DNA of 64,000 nucleotides from Emcibacter nanhaiensis. GTDB lineage: Bacteria; Pseudomonadota; Alphaproteobacteria; Sphingomonadales; Emcibacteraceae. The translations under genes were made by a program, and so were the position numbers. The notes beneath the pieces are model-generated. The model had not been told where the DNA came from and did not search any database. It worked only from the letters and a program-made list of their open reading frames with translations. Shown here in pieces: positions 58 through 18,781 of this stretch; within the stretch, counting starts at the first letter, position 1, and every line of letters begins with the position of its first letter. Location: contig NZ_VFIY01000014.1 in assembly GCF_006385175.1 (NCBI RefSeq), forward strand, positions 186,001 to 250,000. Direction: 5' to 3'.

Positions 58-2265
<2,208 letters not shown>

Positions 2266-2334
2266 GGAGCAGTTTTAGGGGGGAACGCGTATTGGTTATA
2301 TTTCTACTTTTGTACATTTGATTAGGGTCTCAAA

Positions 2335-2991
2335 TCAAATGTTCGCATCAAGATTATCTGCATTTAGGACCAATACGTCTTCGACAAAGTTCTCAATATT
2401 CGGTATTGCATCTAAAAAACAAACCTCTGCAATGGCCTTTTCCGTTCCATATTTAGACTTTCGTTCTGAGAATGGATAGCTCGTAATATCCTTAAAAAGA
2501 TTCTTGGAGCGCGGATGTGCAAATGGTTTTGTACAACCGCTGTTTATAGGCGAAATTCTCAGTCTTTTTACATATTCTTTGACAAGCGGCTCCGTTCTCA
2601 CAATAAGAACGTCATGATTAAGGTCCCGATAGGCTTTTGCCGAGATCATAGTTTTCAATCGACTTTTCGTAGGCCAGAAAAATACCATGGAGTTCAACAG
2701 ATAATACCATTCTGAAGGCATCATTGTTCCATTGAGTGCCCTGATTACGCCTTTGTCAGTCATTGGAATTTGGTCACGAATAACAGCATCTGGCAAGTGT
2801 TTACTTTGAATCGTGACACATTCTGGTCGATGCTGAGTAGCTACAATAGATTTTGTACTATCATCAATCTCGTAAAGTTCCAGCAGTGAATTTGTTGAAA
2901 GAAGGCCGTGCTTTTTTATTGTCGGCCAACTTTTATTCCAAGCCATATGATAGAGTACTGGATAATGAGTATATAATTCTTCTAATTCCAT
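2335..2991 (-). CDS. DUF7002-like protein, possible ADP-ribosyltransferase-fold effector
   Basis: This is the third gene of the AT-rich island operon, 218 residues. The N-terminus (YHMAWNKSWPTIKKHGLLS) has the H...I..HGLL pattern of ART-fold proteins such as DarT. It matches my memory of DUF7002, as do the central FFW segment and YRDLNHDVLIV. A C-terminal AIAEVCF offers an acidic residue where ART enzymes keep their catalytic Glu. An ART activity is inference from this H/FFW/E pattern and from the macro domain encoded in the same operon. The ATG at 2991 overlaps the upstream stop as TGATG, which implies translational coupling; a TTG two codons earlier is less likely. A weak 8-bp inverted repeat (2316-2340) lies at the 3' end without a T-tract. 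Confidence 0.7.
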   Translation of the reverse strand: MELEELYTHYPVLYHMAWNKSWPTIKKHGLLSTNSLLELYEIDDSTKSIVATQHRPECVTIQSKHLPDAVIRDQIPMTDKGVIRALNGTMMPSEWYYLLNSMVFFWPTKSRLKTMISAKAYRDLNHDVLIVRTEPLVKEYVKRLRISPINSGCTKPFAHPRSKNLFKDITSYPFSERKSKYGTEKAIAEVCFLDAIPNIENFVEDVLVLNADNLDANI

Positions 2992-4610
2992 CACCAACGC
3001 CGCCGATCAATAACACATTTAAAGTCAAATTTATTCGCGATAAGTGAACATGGTACACCAGAAACAGATTCCACGGCCTCGATGAAATTTATAGTTTCTT
3101 TTGTTAATTGTTCAAAACGAGCTGCATTTGCATTTTTAATATCAATATGATCTACAAAGGTCAAAGCGATATCAGTTGGTGAATTTAAATGACACGCCTT
3201 TCTCAATAAACTCCAGTCGAATTCGCACACTCTGCGGGGATTGCCAGAAACTGACCCGACCTCCGAAGATCTCAATTGCTGTAAATCATTCCCTGACCTT
3301 TCAGCAATCACCTCCCACGTTGTCTCCTTATCCATACCCCCTGAGTTCCCCCCCACACGTATAGGATAAGTCCTGCAAACCAGCACAATTTTCCTTACGC
3401 GCCTTGGCCCTATTCCTGCTTCAGCCAAACAACCGGATACCGTTGTATCCCTAGAAGTAACGGAAGGATATTCGCCATGGTATAAACTTAACCCTGTGCC
3501 TTGGGTGCCCTCCAAGAGAATTTTATGACCTTCCGCATAAGCTTTCTCCAGATGTTTATATGTAGGACCTACATAAGGAAGCAAGTCCGGGCATATTTCT
3601 CCCAAATTTTTAGCCAGCTTGCATACTTTTTCGTCTCGAAATCTATTTCTTATTCGTCTCGACGCAGCAGCTCCTACACCTTGCGCTGTTGACCCAATCC
3701 CTTTCTTTAAAAATTGCTCTTCCCAATCGATATCTTCTTGGGAAATAATCGCAACATTTTCATCAATCGTAAGCCTATCCGGGCTGATTTCACATTCTCT
3801 TATTTCTTTGAGTAACCCTTGTGGATTAACTACTGCACCTGGACCTATAAGTATTTTCGCTTTCTCGTTTCTGCGACAGCCACAGGGTAATGATCTGTGT
3901 GTGTAGGGAGGATCCTCATATATTTTGTGACCCGCGTTTGGACCTCCAACCCTCATCAAGATGCCATATTCTGGCGATAAATAGTCGGCAATATTCCCCT
4001 TACCCTCGCTCCCTAACTGCCCCCCGATCAGAACATCAACTAGCTGATCTGATGATCTAGAAACAAGATTCAAACGTGAATAAACATGACTAAAGACACC
4101 ATTTCCTGTGAATCTATCTGTATCGACAACGATATCAGCTACATGCTCAAGCTTTGAAACACCTTTCTCAGAAGTATTCCTTGAAATACGGTCAAAATCT
4201 ACTCCTCTATCTGTATCTCGCTCACGTGAAACAAAACGCTCTTTACGTACTTGAAAATCAGCTCGCAAATGAACATGTTTTAGATGACGATGACCAAACG
4301 ACTTTTGAAGGGCTTCTATCTGACCCTGTTTCCGCACACCGTCAAGAATTATTGGAAGATCGTATTCTGGTTTGCGTCTTAGTCGGCCAACTGCGTCAGC
4401 TATCCAAGCAAAGCCTGTTTCATTATCGAGCTTGTTCCCAGCCCTCTGAAGTGCGGTTCTTTCTTTTTTGGTTCTCGGTTTTTGTTGAAGAATTAAATCA
4501 GAAGTTTTAACAACTGGAAATCCAGTAGCATCTCTCAGATCTTTAGCTAACTGTGACTTTCCGCACGCTATTTCACCACTAATAATAATTAGCTTCAACG
4601 TCGTTATCAT
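2991..4610 (-). CDS. P-loop (deoxy)nucleotide kinase fused to PurZ-like adenylosuccinate synthetase
   Basis: A 539-residue fusion. Residues 1-180 are a small P-loop kinase: Walker A GEIACGKS at 12-19, and an ILDGVR segment at 88-93 as in NMP or dephospho-CoA kinase-like proteins. Residues 188-539 are a short adenylosuccinate synthetase: GGQLGSEGKGN at 196, PNAGHK at 224, GSTAQG at 306, EGTQG at 367, VTSRD at 384, YPIRVGGNSGG at 415. Canonical PurA has GDEGKGK with a catalytic Asp; here the residue is Ser201. The Ser, the TSRD motif and PIRVGGxSGG match phage PurZ as I remember it (the enzyme joining aspartate to dGMP in 2-aminoadenine synthesis). The catalytic His equivalent (His228) is kept. 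Gaps are 12 nt upstream and a 1-nt stop/start overlap downstream. The substrate is unknown; a dedicated deoxypurine nucleotide is inferred. It is not the housekeeping purA. Confidence 0.85.
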   Translation of the reverse strand: MITTLKLIIISGEIACGKSQLAKDLRDATGFPVVKTSDLILQQKPRTKKERTALQRAGNKLDNETGFAWIADAVGRLRRKPEYDLPIILDGVRKQGQIEALQKSFGHRHLKHVHLRADFQVRKERFVSRERDTDRGVDFDRISRNTSEKGVSKLEHVADIVVDTDRFTGNGVFSHVYSRLNLVSRSSDQLVDVLIGGQLGSEGKGNIADYLSPEYGILMRVGGPNAGHKIYEDPPYTHRSLPCGCRRNEKAKILIGPGAVVNPQGLLKEIRECEISPDRLTIDENVAIISQEDIDWEEQFLKKGIGSTAQGVGAAASRRIRNRFRDEKVCKLAKNLGEICPDLLPYVGPTYKHLEKAYAEGHKILLEGTQGTGLSLYHGEYPSVTSRDTTVSGCLAEAGIGPRRVRKIVLVCRTYPIRVGGNSGGMDKETTWEVIAERSGNDLQQLRSSEVGSVSGNPRRVCEFDWSLLRKACHLNSPTDIALTFVDHIDIKNANAARFEQLTKETINFIEAVESVSGVPCSLIANKFDFKCVIDRRRW

Positions 4611-4622
4611 TATCTCGTCAAA

Positions 4623-5957
4623 TCATTTTGGGGGTAGATCATAAATTTTAACGTTAATATTTCTTAGTACCAAGGTTTCTAAAATAATCCCCTCGATCAC
4701 ATTCCAATTTCCACCAGCTTGCCCCGCCCCTATACGCGGCATTTGAACATCTAATATATTTTTCTCGATTAAGTATTCGGCCAATTTTTCGAACGCAGCA
4801 TATAGGGCTGAATAACGAATACGCGGTTTGGATGATTCTCCGTAGCCAGATTGGGCTATCAAGCTTGCAATATACCGATTTTCCTCAATCGAAAACGAAT
4901 GAAAGTTACCAAGTCGGAATTTTTCCTTAAAATTCGTTACCCATCTACGATAATCTGCATTCGCCGACGGATATTTTCGGGCCAAAGCCCGTGCAAACCC
5001 AAAACCTCCCCAACTTCTCGCTTTATTATTTACCAAATGTACAATTGCGGAATCTGAAGAAGAGGAAAATTCTGATGCGTCGCCATGACGATATTCAATT
5101 TTTGAGGAGAGAGTTTTTCCATCATTATTAGGATACGCGAAGCCCGCAATCCTTATTTCACTTGTTCCAGGATAAGGGGGGAGACCTACCGCCTCAACTT
5201 TCAGTTCGGGCAAATCATCAGACCAAATCTCGATAGCATTCGATGTTGTCCCAATTGCCACGCATTCATCAAAGCATCTGGAATCCTTGATTTTAAGACC
5301 TTCCACCTTACCATGTGGCCAAGAAGATGACGGAATAGCATAATCCAATCTATATTCACTACCCTTATCGGTTTTTACTTTCGAAACCGCAAAACTAATG
5401 GCTGGAAATTTTGCGACTTTTGCCATTCGAATAAGCATCGCCTCTGTGGAAACTTGAAACCTCTGCCGTAGTTTCATAACTTCCTCGATTGGCTTTGGAG
5501 TGTCAAAGTTGTCCGAAATAGAGCCAATAGGCATGAGGATTTCGGCAGCTCCAATGTTACAAAGCATTTCGAGTTGCCAATTTTTCTCATCAATACTTTG
5601 TTTTGTCCTATACCTTGTCTTTTCTGCCCAATCGTCAAAGAAGGTATGGGCAATCTCATGAGCTATAGAAAAGTTTACACGCCCCAATGACTTATTCGGG
5701 TTGTATTCAATGATGTAATTGGAAGTTTCTTGAAAAATACGAGCATCGGGAACTGATGCGTTAGGGCGGACGACAATACCTCGCAACGCTGCAAGTTCCA
5801 GAGGATCAAATGGTGGCCCCTGCCATCCCATATCAACAGCGTCTAAAACTAATGACTGCGCCGTCTCTTCCATTTTTTCTACGGGATCTATGTCTTGTGC
5901 AAATTTCAAAACAGATTGATTTTCCCACACAACTTCGCGTTTCATAATAAATCCCAT
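4623..5957 (-). CDS. ImmA/IrrE-type zinc peptidase fused to a macro domain
   Basis: First gene of the island operon, 444 residues. Residues 30-180 are an M78 (ImmA/IrrE) metallopeptidase: HEIAH at 100-104, with Glu139 in NIGAAEILMP as the likely third zinc ligand. In known family members the peptidase cleaves a repressor. Residues ~287-444 are a macro domain of the ALC1/DarG kind: VNNKARSWGGFGFA from 309 and MPRIGAGQAGGNW from 406. Such domains bind or remove ADP-ribose. The middle (180-285) is unassigned. No helix-turn-helix is visible. The second ATG (residue 5, position 5945) has a GGGA about six bases upstream, and a TATAAT lies directly before the first ATG, so the shorter start may be the real one. 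A role as sensor or antitoxin for the downstream effectors is inference. Confidence 0.85.
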   Translation of the reverse strand: MGFIMKREVVWENQSVLKFAQDIDPVEKMEETAQSLVLDAVDMGWQGPPFDPLELAALRGIVVRPNASVPDARIFQETSNYIIEYNPNKSLGRVNFSIAHEIAHTFFDDWAEKTRYRTKQSIDEKNWQLEMLCNIGAAEILMPIGSISDNFDTPKPIEEVMKLRQRFQVSTEAMLIRMAKVAKFPAISFAVSKVKTDKGSEYRLDYAIPSSSWPHGKVEGLKIKDSRCFDECVAIGTTSNAIEIWSDDLPELKVEAVGLPPYPGTSEIRIAGFAYPNNDGKTLSSKIEYRHGDASEFSSSSDSAIVHLVNNKARSWGGFGFARALARKYPSANADYRRWVTNFKEKFRLGNFHSFSIEENRYIASLIAQSGYGESSKPRIRYSALYAAFEKLAEYLIEKNILDVQMPRIGAGQAGGNWNVIEGIILETLVLRNINVKIYDLPPK

Positions 5958-5962
5958 ATTAA

Positions 5963-5968
5963 ATTATA
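5963..5968 (-). promoter_or_regulatory. Candidate -10 box of the island operon
   Basis: On the minus strand this reads TATAAT, five bases before the first ATG of the ImmA-macro gene. No convincing -35 hexamer sits 16-18 bases further upstream. If it is used, transcription would start at about the first ATG, which favours the second ATG at 5945 or leaderless translation. Confidence 0.35.
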
Positions 5969-6234
5969 AAGAGAACTCGAACAAGCAGCTTTTAACCAAG
6001 AATCATTCACTACATCTCTAATAATAGAAATAAGCACAATCTGGACCAAGCATATAAATTAATCTTTTGAGCCGACGATATTTTGAAACCTCATCACAGT
6101 TAACTAAAAATTGCAGAGCATCTTTAGCATCAGCGACTTGAGTTCATTTTAAGTTCTGCGCTGATCCAAATTAGTTTTTAGATGTGTGACAATATAAACA
6201 TACTGCTTTCTCGGAAATCTCAGAGAAAGGACAT

Positions 6235-15981: not shown

Positions 15982-16078
15982 GGCAAAAAAACACAAAAGA
16001 AATTGCGCTTTTTCGAATTTGCGATTAAACAGTGTTTTTTGTTACCCATACTAACTAATAATCTTGGGCCGGATAGTT

Positions 16079-16486
16079 ATGCAGAAAAGTAACCTGACAC
16101 CTCTGAAGTTGGCCAATGCCGCCAAGTCCCTGCGTCATGTCTTTGTCAATGACCTGATCATCGACGGGCACATCGGCATCTATGACCACGAAAAGGAAAA
16201 GGCCCAGAAAATCAAGATCAGCGTCGATCTCGCGGTTGAAGAAAGCGAACACCCCCTGCAGGACGACATCAACAACGTCCTGTGCTACGAGGCGATCGTG
16301 AACAATATTGAAACCATGGTCCATTCCGGTCATATCCATCTGGTGGAAACCCTGGCGGAAAACATTGCCCAGATGAATCTCCAGGATGCCCGCGTTGCCA
16401 CCGTCAGGGTCCGCGTGGAGAAACTGGAGGCCTTTTCCAACACCGCCAGCGTCGGTGTCGAAATCGAACGCAGCCGCAAACTCTGA
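16079..16486 (+). CDS. folB: Dihydroneopterin aldolase-like protein
   Basis: 135 residues from the ATG at 16079; an in-frame TTG five codons earlier is an alternative. FVNDLIIDGHIGIYDHEKEKAQ near the N-terminus, CYEAIVNNIETMV in the middle and VRVEKLEAF near the end are the hallmarks of the tunnelling-fold FolB family. FolB cleaves 7,8-dihydroneopterin in folate synthesis and forms a cytosolic octamer. It is not next to other folate genes, so another tunnelling-fold activity cannot be fully excluded. It is followed by the DnaA-box-rich spacer. Confidence 0.8.
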   Translation: MQKSNLTPLKLANAAKSLRHVFVNDLIIDGHIGIYDHEKEKAQKIKISVDLAVEESEHPLQDDINNVLCYEAIVNNIETMVHSGHIHLVETLAENIAQMNLQDARVATVRVRVEKLEAFSNTASVGVEIERSRKL

Positions 16487-16936
16487 AAAGTCGCTACGGT
16501 TCAGTTTAAGGGCTTGAAAATCAAGCAGATAACCGGCCGAATCCTCATAAGTTGTGCACAGCAATAGACAGACAGTTATTTAGCGTAACAAATGTGTAGT
16601 ACTCGCTGGAAAAACAATTTCAAAAGCCCCCTTGACTTTGTTTTTATTGTTTATTTTCAATAACTTGCTTTCAATGCACATTTTTTATGCAATTTGATAA
16701 AACCCCAGAGTTACTGCCGTCTTCAACATTCTGTCAAAAAGTTATGCACCGAGTTATCCACAGGTTACGTGGATAGATTTGATGGCGACTCTTTGACATT
16801 TTTGTTACTGCTTGATTCACAAGGCTTTTTACGATTTGTTAATCTATTGTTTTGCTTTTTCTAATATTGATTGTAACGCAATCAGACCAAAATCGGCAGT
16901 TCAGTCACTGCAAATTTTCAGGTATAGACTCTAGTC
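16487..16936. other. AT-rich intergenic region with clustered DnaA boxes, possible oriC
   Basis: 450 bases without a gene. One perfect DnaA box, TTATCCACA, is at 16754-16762. Single-mismatch boxes are TTATGCACC (16742-16750), TTGTGCACA (16552-16560) and TGATTCACA (16813-16821). Looser copies are at 16672-16680 and, reversed, near 16768-16776. Long T-rich tracts (16629-16660, 16795-16860) could be a DNA-unwinding element. Against it, the genes on both sides point the same way and dnaA, hemE and parAB are not here. It may instead be a DnaA-titration site or simply the uvrC promoter region. Confidence 0.5.
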
Positions 16937-18781
16937 ATGAATGAAGGCGTCGAGGTCATAAAATCCTATCTCAAAACCCTGCCGGGCAAACCGGGGGTAT
17001 ATCGGATGCTGGATGAACATGAGAAGGTCCTCTACGTGGGCAAGGCCAAGAGCCTGAAGAACCGGGTTTCCAACTATGCCAACCTGCGCGGCCTCGGCTA
17101 CCGCATTGGCCGCATGGTGACCCTGACCCGTAGTATGGAATTTGTCACCACCAATACCGAGGTGGAGGCCCTGCTTCTGGAAGCCAGCCTGATCAAGCGC
17201 TTCAAACCACCCTATAATGTACTGCTGCGCGACGACAAGTCGTTCCCCTATATCCGCATCGACATGTCACACCCCTCTCCCCGGGTCATGAAACATCGCG
17301 GTGCGCGCAAGGACGGCAGCATCTATTTCGGCCCCTTTGCCTCGGTCAGCGCGGTCAATTACAGCCTCCACATTCTGCAGAAGGCCTTTCTGTTGCGGAC
17401 CTGTTCGGACAATGTCTTCAGCCACCGCACCCGGCCCTGCCTGCTGTATCAAATCAAGCGCTGTGCAGCGCCCTGTGTGGACAAGATCACACACGAGGAA
17501 TATGACGCCCTGGTGCAGTCGGCCCGCGACTTCCTGAGCGGCAAAAGCCAGGAAATCAAAAAGGTCATGACCGACAAAATGATCGAGGCCAGCGACCGGA
17601 TGGAATTCGAACTGGCGGCCGTCTACCGCGACCGGCTCAAGGCGCTGGCGGCGGTCCAGTCGCGCCAGGACATCAACCAGGGACATCTGGAGGATGCGGA
17701 TATCATCGCCGCCTTCCAGGAGGGCGGACAAACCTGTATCCAGGTCTTCTTTTACCGCGCCGGGCAGAACTGGGGCAACAAGGCCTATTTCCCGCGCCAT
17801 GACAAGGACCAGGCCATTGACGAAGTGCTGCCGGCCTTCATGTCGCAGTTTTACGACAACAAGGAACCGCCGAGGCTGATCCTGGTCAACGCCCATATGG
17901 CCCAGAAAAAACTGCTGCAGGAAGCACTCAGCATGAAAGCCGGCCGGGCCGTCAAGATCACCTTCCCGCAACGGGGCGAGAAGTTCAATATGGTGGCGCT
18001 GGTGGAGAAAAACGCCCGCGAAGCCCTGGGCCGCAAACTTACCGAGAGCGCCAGCCAGAAAAAGCTGCTGGAGGGTGTGGCCCGGGTCTTCGACCTGGAA
18101 AACCCGCCGAACCGTATCGAGGTTTATGACAACAGCCATATCTCCGGCACCAATGCGCTCGGCGCCATGATCGTGGCCGGCCCGGAAGGGTTCGAGAAAA
18201 ATGCCTACCGCAAGTTCAACATCAAGTCGGACAAGCTGACCCCAGGTGACGACTTCGCCATGATGCGGGAAGTGATGACCCGCCGCTTCAGCCGCCAGCT
18301 CCGGGAAAACCCGGACCGGGACGACGCCAGTTGGCCTGACCTGCTAGTGATCGACGGCGGCAAGGGGCAGCTCAGCGCGGTGATGGAAATCCTCGCCGAC
18401 CTGGGTCTGGAGGATATCGCCATCGTCTCCATCGCCAAGGGACCGGATCGTAATGCCGGACGGGAGGATTTCTATCTGCCCGGCAAAGAACCGTTCAAAC
18501 TTGCCCCCAATGATCCGGTACTCTATTTCCTGCAGCGGCTGCGCGATGAGTCCCATCGCTTCGCCATCGGCAGCCACCGCCAGCAACGCGGCAAGACGAT
18601 GCAGAAATCGCTGCTCGACGGCCTGCCCGGCGTGGGGCCGCGACGCAAAAAAGCGCTACTGATGCATTTCGGCTCCGCCAAGGCGGTGGCCGGGGCCGCG
18701 CTGGAGGACCTGGGCCGGGTCGAAGGGATCAGCAAAACGCTGGCCCAGTCGATCTATGACTATTTCCACGACAACGACTGA
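16937..18781 (+). CDS. uvrC: UvrABC excinuclease subunit C
   Basis: UvrC makes the 3' and 5' incisions of nucleotide excision repair on the UvrB-DNA complex. The 614-residue protein has the GIY-YIG nuclease at the N-terminus (PGVYRMLDEHEKVLYVGKAK), then a Cys cluster (RTCSD...RCAAPC). A UVR motif lies near 203-238, the RNase H-like 5' nuclease with EVYDNSHISGT and LLVIDGGKGQ near 395-480, and a C-terminal helix-hairpin-helix pair (LPGVGPRRKKALL). All parts are intact. It is followed closely by pgsA and the moaD-moaE pair on the same strand, the arrangement seen in many proteobacteria. Confidence 0.98.
   Translation: MNEGVEVIKSYLKTLPGKPGVYRMLDEHEKVLYVGKAKSLKNRVSNYANLRGLGYRIGRMVTLTRSMEFVTTNTEVEALLLEASLIKRFKPPYNVLLRDDKSFPYIRIDMSHPSPRVMKHRGARKDGSIYFGPFASVSAVNYSLHILQKAFLLRTCSDNVFSHRTRPCLLYQIKRCAAPCVDKITHEEYDALVQSARDFLSGKSQEIKKVMTDKMIEASDRMEFELAAVYRDRLKALAAVQSRQDINQGHLEDADIIAAFQEGGQTCIQVFFYRAGQNWGNKAYFPRHDKDQAIDEVLPAFMSQFYDNKEPPRLILVNAHMAQKKLLQEALSMKAGRAVKITFPQRGEKFNMVALVEKNAREALGRKLTESASQKKLLEGVARVFDLENPPNRIEVYDNSHISGTNALGAMIVAGPEGFEKNAYRKFNIKSDKLTPGDDFAMMREVMTRRFSRQLRENPDRDDASWPDLLVIDGGKGQLSAVMEILADLGLEDIAIVSIAKGPDRNAGREDFYLPGKEPFKLAPNDPVLYFLQRLRDESHRFAIGSHRQQRGKTMQKSLLDGLPGVGPRRKKALLMHFGSAKAVAGAALEDLGRVEGISKTLAQSIYDYFHDND

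Follow-up and report, generated by a model that had tools for sequence, protein, structure and literature searches.

A predicted DARS-type DnaA site upstream of uvrC in Emcibacter nanhaiensis and other Alphaproteobacteria

The interval between folB and uvrC of Emcibacter nanhaiensis carries three DnaA boxes in one fixed arrangement that is conserved across genera, and its architecture makes it probable that a DARS-type site, at which ADP-DnaA would be exchanged for ATP-DnaA, lies before uvrC. This arrangement, which proved to be the decisive feature, had been omitted from an earlier note on the same DNA, where a chromosomal replication origin or, more widely, an oriC or DnaA-titrating site was proposed. 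Our results support the wider idea that 16487-16936 holds no gene but a site of replication control bound by DnaA; they do not support an origin there, nor titration alone.

The three-box core between folB and uvrC

The window, that is, the whole stretch of DNA analysed, comprises 64,000 nucleotides (contig C14:186001-250000) of a 3.96 Mb genome in 19 contigs; its positions 2001-6000 have a GC content of 0.43, compared with about 0.56 for the window, and are possibly acquired DNA. The open reading frames and NCBIfam matches leave 16487-16936 free of genes, as previously described, with the folB stop at 16486 and the uvrC start at 16937. The features of this region are as follows, in window coordinates.

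16064..16486, plus strand: folB (dihydroneopterin aldolase), upstream neighbour; ORF matching NCBIfam TIGR00525, 80.8 bits over the cut-off
16552..16560, plus strand: accessory DnaA-box-like sequence TTGTGCACA, one mismatch to TTWTNCACA
16655..16667, plus strand: IHF-type site TTTCAATAACTTG, matching WATCAANNNNTTR at 12 of 13 positions, 74 bp from box III
16674..16692, no strand: palindrome ATGCACATTTTTTATGCAA, counterpart of the class-wide TTGCC-N9-GGCAA
16676-16690: inner 15-mer of the palindrome, fitting the Fis-type consensus GNNYANNNNNTRNNC
16742..16750, plus strand: DnaA box III TTATGCACC, within the conserved column block of the alignments
16754..16762, plus strand: DnaA box II TTATCCACA, perfect, 3 bp from box III
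16768..16776, minus strand: DnaA box I CTATCCACG, opposed to box II across 5 bp
16742..16776, minus strand: candidate DARS-type core, boxes I-II-III read on the minus strand (leave-one-out profile)
16787..16791, no strand: GANTC (GACTC), CcrM-type site, +10 after box I, an offset common to family and order
16814..16818, no strand: GANTC (GATTC), CcrM-type site, +37 after box I (36-37 in 11 of 13 family loci)
16937..18781, plus strand: uvrC, downstream neighbour; NCBIfam TIGR00194, 567.6 bits

The perfect DnaA box reported in the earlier note was recovered as the sole one of the interval, TTATCCACA at 16754-16762. The near-perfect box and the two or more single-mismatch boxes described beside it depend on the consensus used: scored against TTATCCACA, no further one-mismatch box was found in 16487-16936, whereas the relaxed consensus TTWTNCACA with up to one mismatch gave five sites (16552, 16732 on the minus strand, 16742, 16754 and 16813), compared with a mean of 1.3 in mononucleotide shuffles (p=0.004). 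As to the long T-rich tracts, the interval is 63% A+T and T-rich in places. Searches of the folB-uvrC interval for SOS control (LexA box GTTC-N7-GTTC or GAAC-N7-GAAC) and for CtrA control (TTAACCAT or TTAA-N7-TTAA) found neither, an Rfam scan for structured RNA gave nothing above chance, and scans for sigma-70 promoters and terminators gave numbers at chance level.

When the uvrC-upstream DNA of relatives was aligned, three DnaA boxes were seen to form a block that is free of gaps and kept across genera, and upstream in the family alignment a TTGT-CACA/AACA motif resembling the accessory box at 16552..16560 was also retained. Read on the minus strand, the core of the window is CTATCCACG-TAACC-TGTGGATAA-CTC-GGTGCATAA, with boxes I and II opposed across 5 bp and boxes II and III separated by 3 bp, the same gaps as in DARS1 and DARS2. 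A weight matrix made without the window scored the core at 49.9 bits, while the runner-up within the window reached 7.5 bits and 800 kb of relatives no more than 14.4 bits, and the core was the only full profile match in the whole genome (E=1.4e-9). The second-best place in the genome, C5:61757-61777, is a tandem double DnaA box that corresponds to the II-III half only. A predicted ORF begins at this place, which is about 10 kb away from oriC.

In E. coli, the opposition of boxes I and II has been described as a hallmark of DARSs that ADP dissociation requires (PMC10380432), and box III is stimulatory (PMC10380432; PMC8682772). Tandem boxes 2-3 bp apart are preferred by E. coli DnaA in vivo (PMC11317965). 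Since E. coli DARS1 and DARS2 were chosen from 52 similar opposed box pairs (PMC5835720), such pairs alone are insufficient to define a DARS. From the architecture as a whole, we infer that the site would function as a DARS. ADP-DnaA would bind boxes I and II, facing each other across 5 bp, while DnaA on box III, in tandem with box II across 3 bp, would stabilize the complex; the opposed AAA+ domains would loosen ADP, and apo-DnaA would depart and then take up ATP. Recharged DnaA would ready the cells for the start of replication at oriC near hemE. Binding of IHF and of a dimeric palindrome factor is likewise predicted, and this factor, together with an IHF-type bend some 74 bp past box III, would probably shape and time the complex, in a manner likened to that of IHF and Fis at E. 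coli DARS2.

Flanking elements and distribution in the class

The IHF-type consensus and the palindrome played no part in finding the core sites, and their offsets from the core were fixed. An IHF-type site was present 72-75 bp from box III in 12 of 13 family, 7 of 8 order and 37 of 54 class loci (0.4, 0.3 and 1.0 in shuffles, respectively), which puts a putative IHF site at a constant spacing from the core, on its box III flank, as in a DARS2-type element. TTGCC-N9-GGCAA (at least 8 of 10 positions), starting from about -68, was found in 11 of 13 family, 8 of 8 order and 40 of 54 class loci (shuffles at most 0.2), and the exact Fis-type 15-mer consensus at the same offset in 12 of 13, 7 of 8 and 41 of 54, respectively. 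The palindrome of the window has itself drifted to ATGCA-N9-TGCAA, with the 15-mer fit retained. The pattern TGCC-N9-GGCA-N57..67-TTATCCACA, which is blind to boxes I and III, was present in 56 of 385 genomes (63 matches listed), as compared with one match for the reversed pattern used as a control; the window does not contain the exact pattern. Some genomes have two palindrome-plus-DnaA-box sites (G212:C1:488805 and 497949; G089:C1; G385:C1), in one genome 9 kb apart. The GANTC offsets after box I were enriched in family and order, not class-wide, and the pair may add CcrM/GcrA timing locally.

Of the 385 alphaproteobacterial genomes sampled, 198 had a match to the core profile at E<=0.001, as a rule a single one, and about half of the class sample was without a significant match. 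Among the matches listed are Sneathiellales, Rickettsiales, Rhodospirillales, Kordiimonas, Paracoccus, Magnetospira and Caenispirillum, together with an Emcibacter MAG encoding a UvrC with 74% identity to that of the window. In the 69 loci inspected, uvrC was directly downstream in 54, always in one orientation with box I toward uvrC, and folB was often upstream of the uvrC-linked cores. The core model gave no match in four genomes of one family of the same order (f6; G028, G034, G281 and G362), an apparent lineage-specific loss or divergence. In all 13 genomes with the core elsewhere, some of them small and A+T-rich, the 1.5 kb before uvrC scored at background. Six of the displaced cores still had the IHF-type site 73-75 bp away, and one (L086) still lay just after folB.

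Several of these observations count against a DARS. The absence of a match from half of the class sample and from family f6 is one, and the IHF-type site is reversed with respect to IBS2 of DARS2; a search of this genome's HTH_8 matches found only large HTH_8 proteins and no small Fis-like protein. That the core faces uvrC in a constant orientation in most genomes is also compatible with promoter control, and the site might be a DnaA-dependent uvrC operator only, mediating replication-coupled repression or activation without nucleotide exchange. The 54 of 69 class loci upstream of uvrC in a single orientation are in agreement with this, as are the repression of uvrB by DnaA in E. coli (PMC6015884) and the status of tandem boxes at 3 bp as the usual target of E. 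coli DnaA (PMC11317965). However, a single operator has no need of an opposed third box at a fixed 5-bp gap, and at least 13 genomes have the core without uvrC, their uvrC genes lacking a core. In addition, the core lies anywhere from 31 to 692 bp from uvrC, whereas the core-palindrome-IHF offsets are constant, so that the complex seems to be organized around the core rather than around the uvrC promoter. Since the core moves and yet stays at about one per genome, a genome-wide role is favoured over a mere uvrC operator, and we regard the operator-only explanation as unlikely. Because DnaA represses uvrB in E. coli, control of uvrC may by analogy be an extra or alternative role, and the predicted DARS-type site may additionally tune uvrC transcription.

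Titration and origin readings

A profile of 21 same-order alphaproteobacterial uvrC-upstream cores (model R1), from which E. coli was excluded, was compared with the E. coli loci around DARS1, DARS2, oriC and datA. R1 matched DARS1 over its full length and in register (30.3 bits, E=3.8e-8), and in the DARS2 region the best match, of 18.1 bits, lay in the second box cluster, outside the DARS2 core. At oriC (14.2 bits) and datA (14.9 bits) only the box II-III half was matched, so the profile separates the DARS-type core from both. A datA-like site acting by DnaA titration or by ATP hydrolysis with IHF would share with datA the combination of DnaA boxes and an IHF-type site (PMC10380432); however, the box layout of datA is different and its profile match partial, as compared with the whole core matched in DARS1, three boxes would give little titration, and the opposition of boxes I and II marks a DARS. 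We consider a datA-like role improbable, more so than that of an operator only.

The proposal of a chromosomal replication origin in the folB-uvrC interval can be virtually dismissed on the skew evidence and the hemE locus, its remaining likeness to a hemE-type alphaproteobacterial oriC being that DnaA boxes adjoin A+T-rich DNA. The gap between ppsR (PEP synthase regulator, DUF299) and hemE is the usual setting of the alphaproteobacterial origin. In this genome both genes flank a region at C5:51 kb, away from the folB-uvrC site, and the gap between them holds five perfect TTATCCACA boxes within 295 bp (C5:51311-51605); the contig also carries dnaA, and a parS-like site lies 7.5 kb away from the boxes. 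Across the ppsR-hemE gap, GC skew turns from -0.073 to +0.046, and it is unchanged between the two sides of the folB-uvrC interval (-0.048 and -0.047). The skew check suggested in the earlier note was also run in two complete relatives, sampling twenty 20-kb stretches in each, and placed the minimum at hemE rather than at folB-uvrC, the outcome that the note had named as refuting an origin here: negative skew gave way to positive skew between 4.01 and 4.13 Mb in one (G001; hemE at 4.10 Mb), and in the other between 3.12 and 0.03 Mb (G002; hemE at 3.145 Mb). uvrC lies at 2.07 Mb and 1.92 Mb, respectively, past the skew maximum, which makes the uvrC site terminus-proximal. Taken together, these results indicate that C5:51311-51605 is likely the true oriC.

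Relation to known DnaA-reactivating sites

To our knowledge, there is no established route by which alphaproteobacterial DnaA passes from the ADP to the ATP form. DARS have been tied to Gammaproteobacteria (PMC4451416), as has the DARS2 core (PMC4245941). One review places DARS in 'many proteobacterial species' with the classes unnamed (PMC10380432), so that earlier notice of alphaproteobacterial cores is possible; our literature search returned nothing relevant on alphaproteobacterial DARS, on uvrC with DnaA-reactivating, or on HdaB. If the DARS-type assignment is true, Alphaproteobacteria would gain a DnaA-ADP recharging step so far undescribed for them, and a compact single candidate site in about half of the sampled genomes would make the question accessible by deletion. 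The conserved palindrome predicts a partner protein.

The same core pattern was found outside the class, near uvrB in Paraglaciecola, Idiomarina, Oceanimonas and Bowmanella and upstream of priA in Comamonas, Aquabacterium and others. The priA-linked cores belong to Burkholderiales and some other beta- and gammaproteobacteria (L099, L130, L134, L153, L167, L168, L183, L199 and others), and TTGCC-N9-GGCAA was present at the same offset in 12 of the 16 priA-linked non-alphaproteobacterial sites; the uvrB-linked cores (L116, L125, L147, L157, L159, L197 and others) were without it. In both groups an oppositely oriented IHF-type consensus stood 83-86 bp away from box III. A composite site of common origin across these lineages is plausible, and the repeated link to uvrC, uvrB or priA hints at a coupling of DNA repair, replication restart and initiation. 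We give about even chances to the fuller proposal that the alpha and beta/gamma lineages, at the least, inherited a DARS core with TTGCC-N9-GGCAA and an IHF bend from a common ancestor, and that this composite site lies mostly beside uvrC, priA and uvrB, works with a palindrome-binding factor, and recharges alphaproteobacterial DnaA-ADP.

Among the E. coli sites, DARS2, upstream of mutH, has the same core architecture (TTATTCACC-TTTTC-TGTGGATAG-AGT-TGTGAAGAA) and is flanked, on the side of box III, by consensus sites for both IHF and Fis (PMC4245941). The order of elements is core-IHF-Fis in DARS2, whereas it is core-palindrome-IHF here, and DARS2 has Fis, of which no small counterpart gene was found in this genome. 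The 74-bp gap to the IHF-type site also occurs at IBS2 of DARS2, but it was not counted as identity because the two sites are opposite in orientation. DARS1, in the uvrB promoter region of the bioD-uvrB interval (TTATCCACT-ATTCC-TGTGGATAA-CCA-TGTGTATTA), has an identical box order, identical orientations and the same 5- and 3-bp gaps, and both sites adjoin an excision-repair gene. They differ in that the gene here is uvrC, toward which the core points the opposite way, and in that an IHF-type site and a palindrome accompany the core, while no IHF consensus with up to one mismatch was found in the surroundings of DARS1. From its sequence, the site appears to be a variant of the known DARS, situated in Alphaproteobacteria mostly ahead of uvrC.
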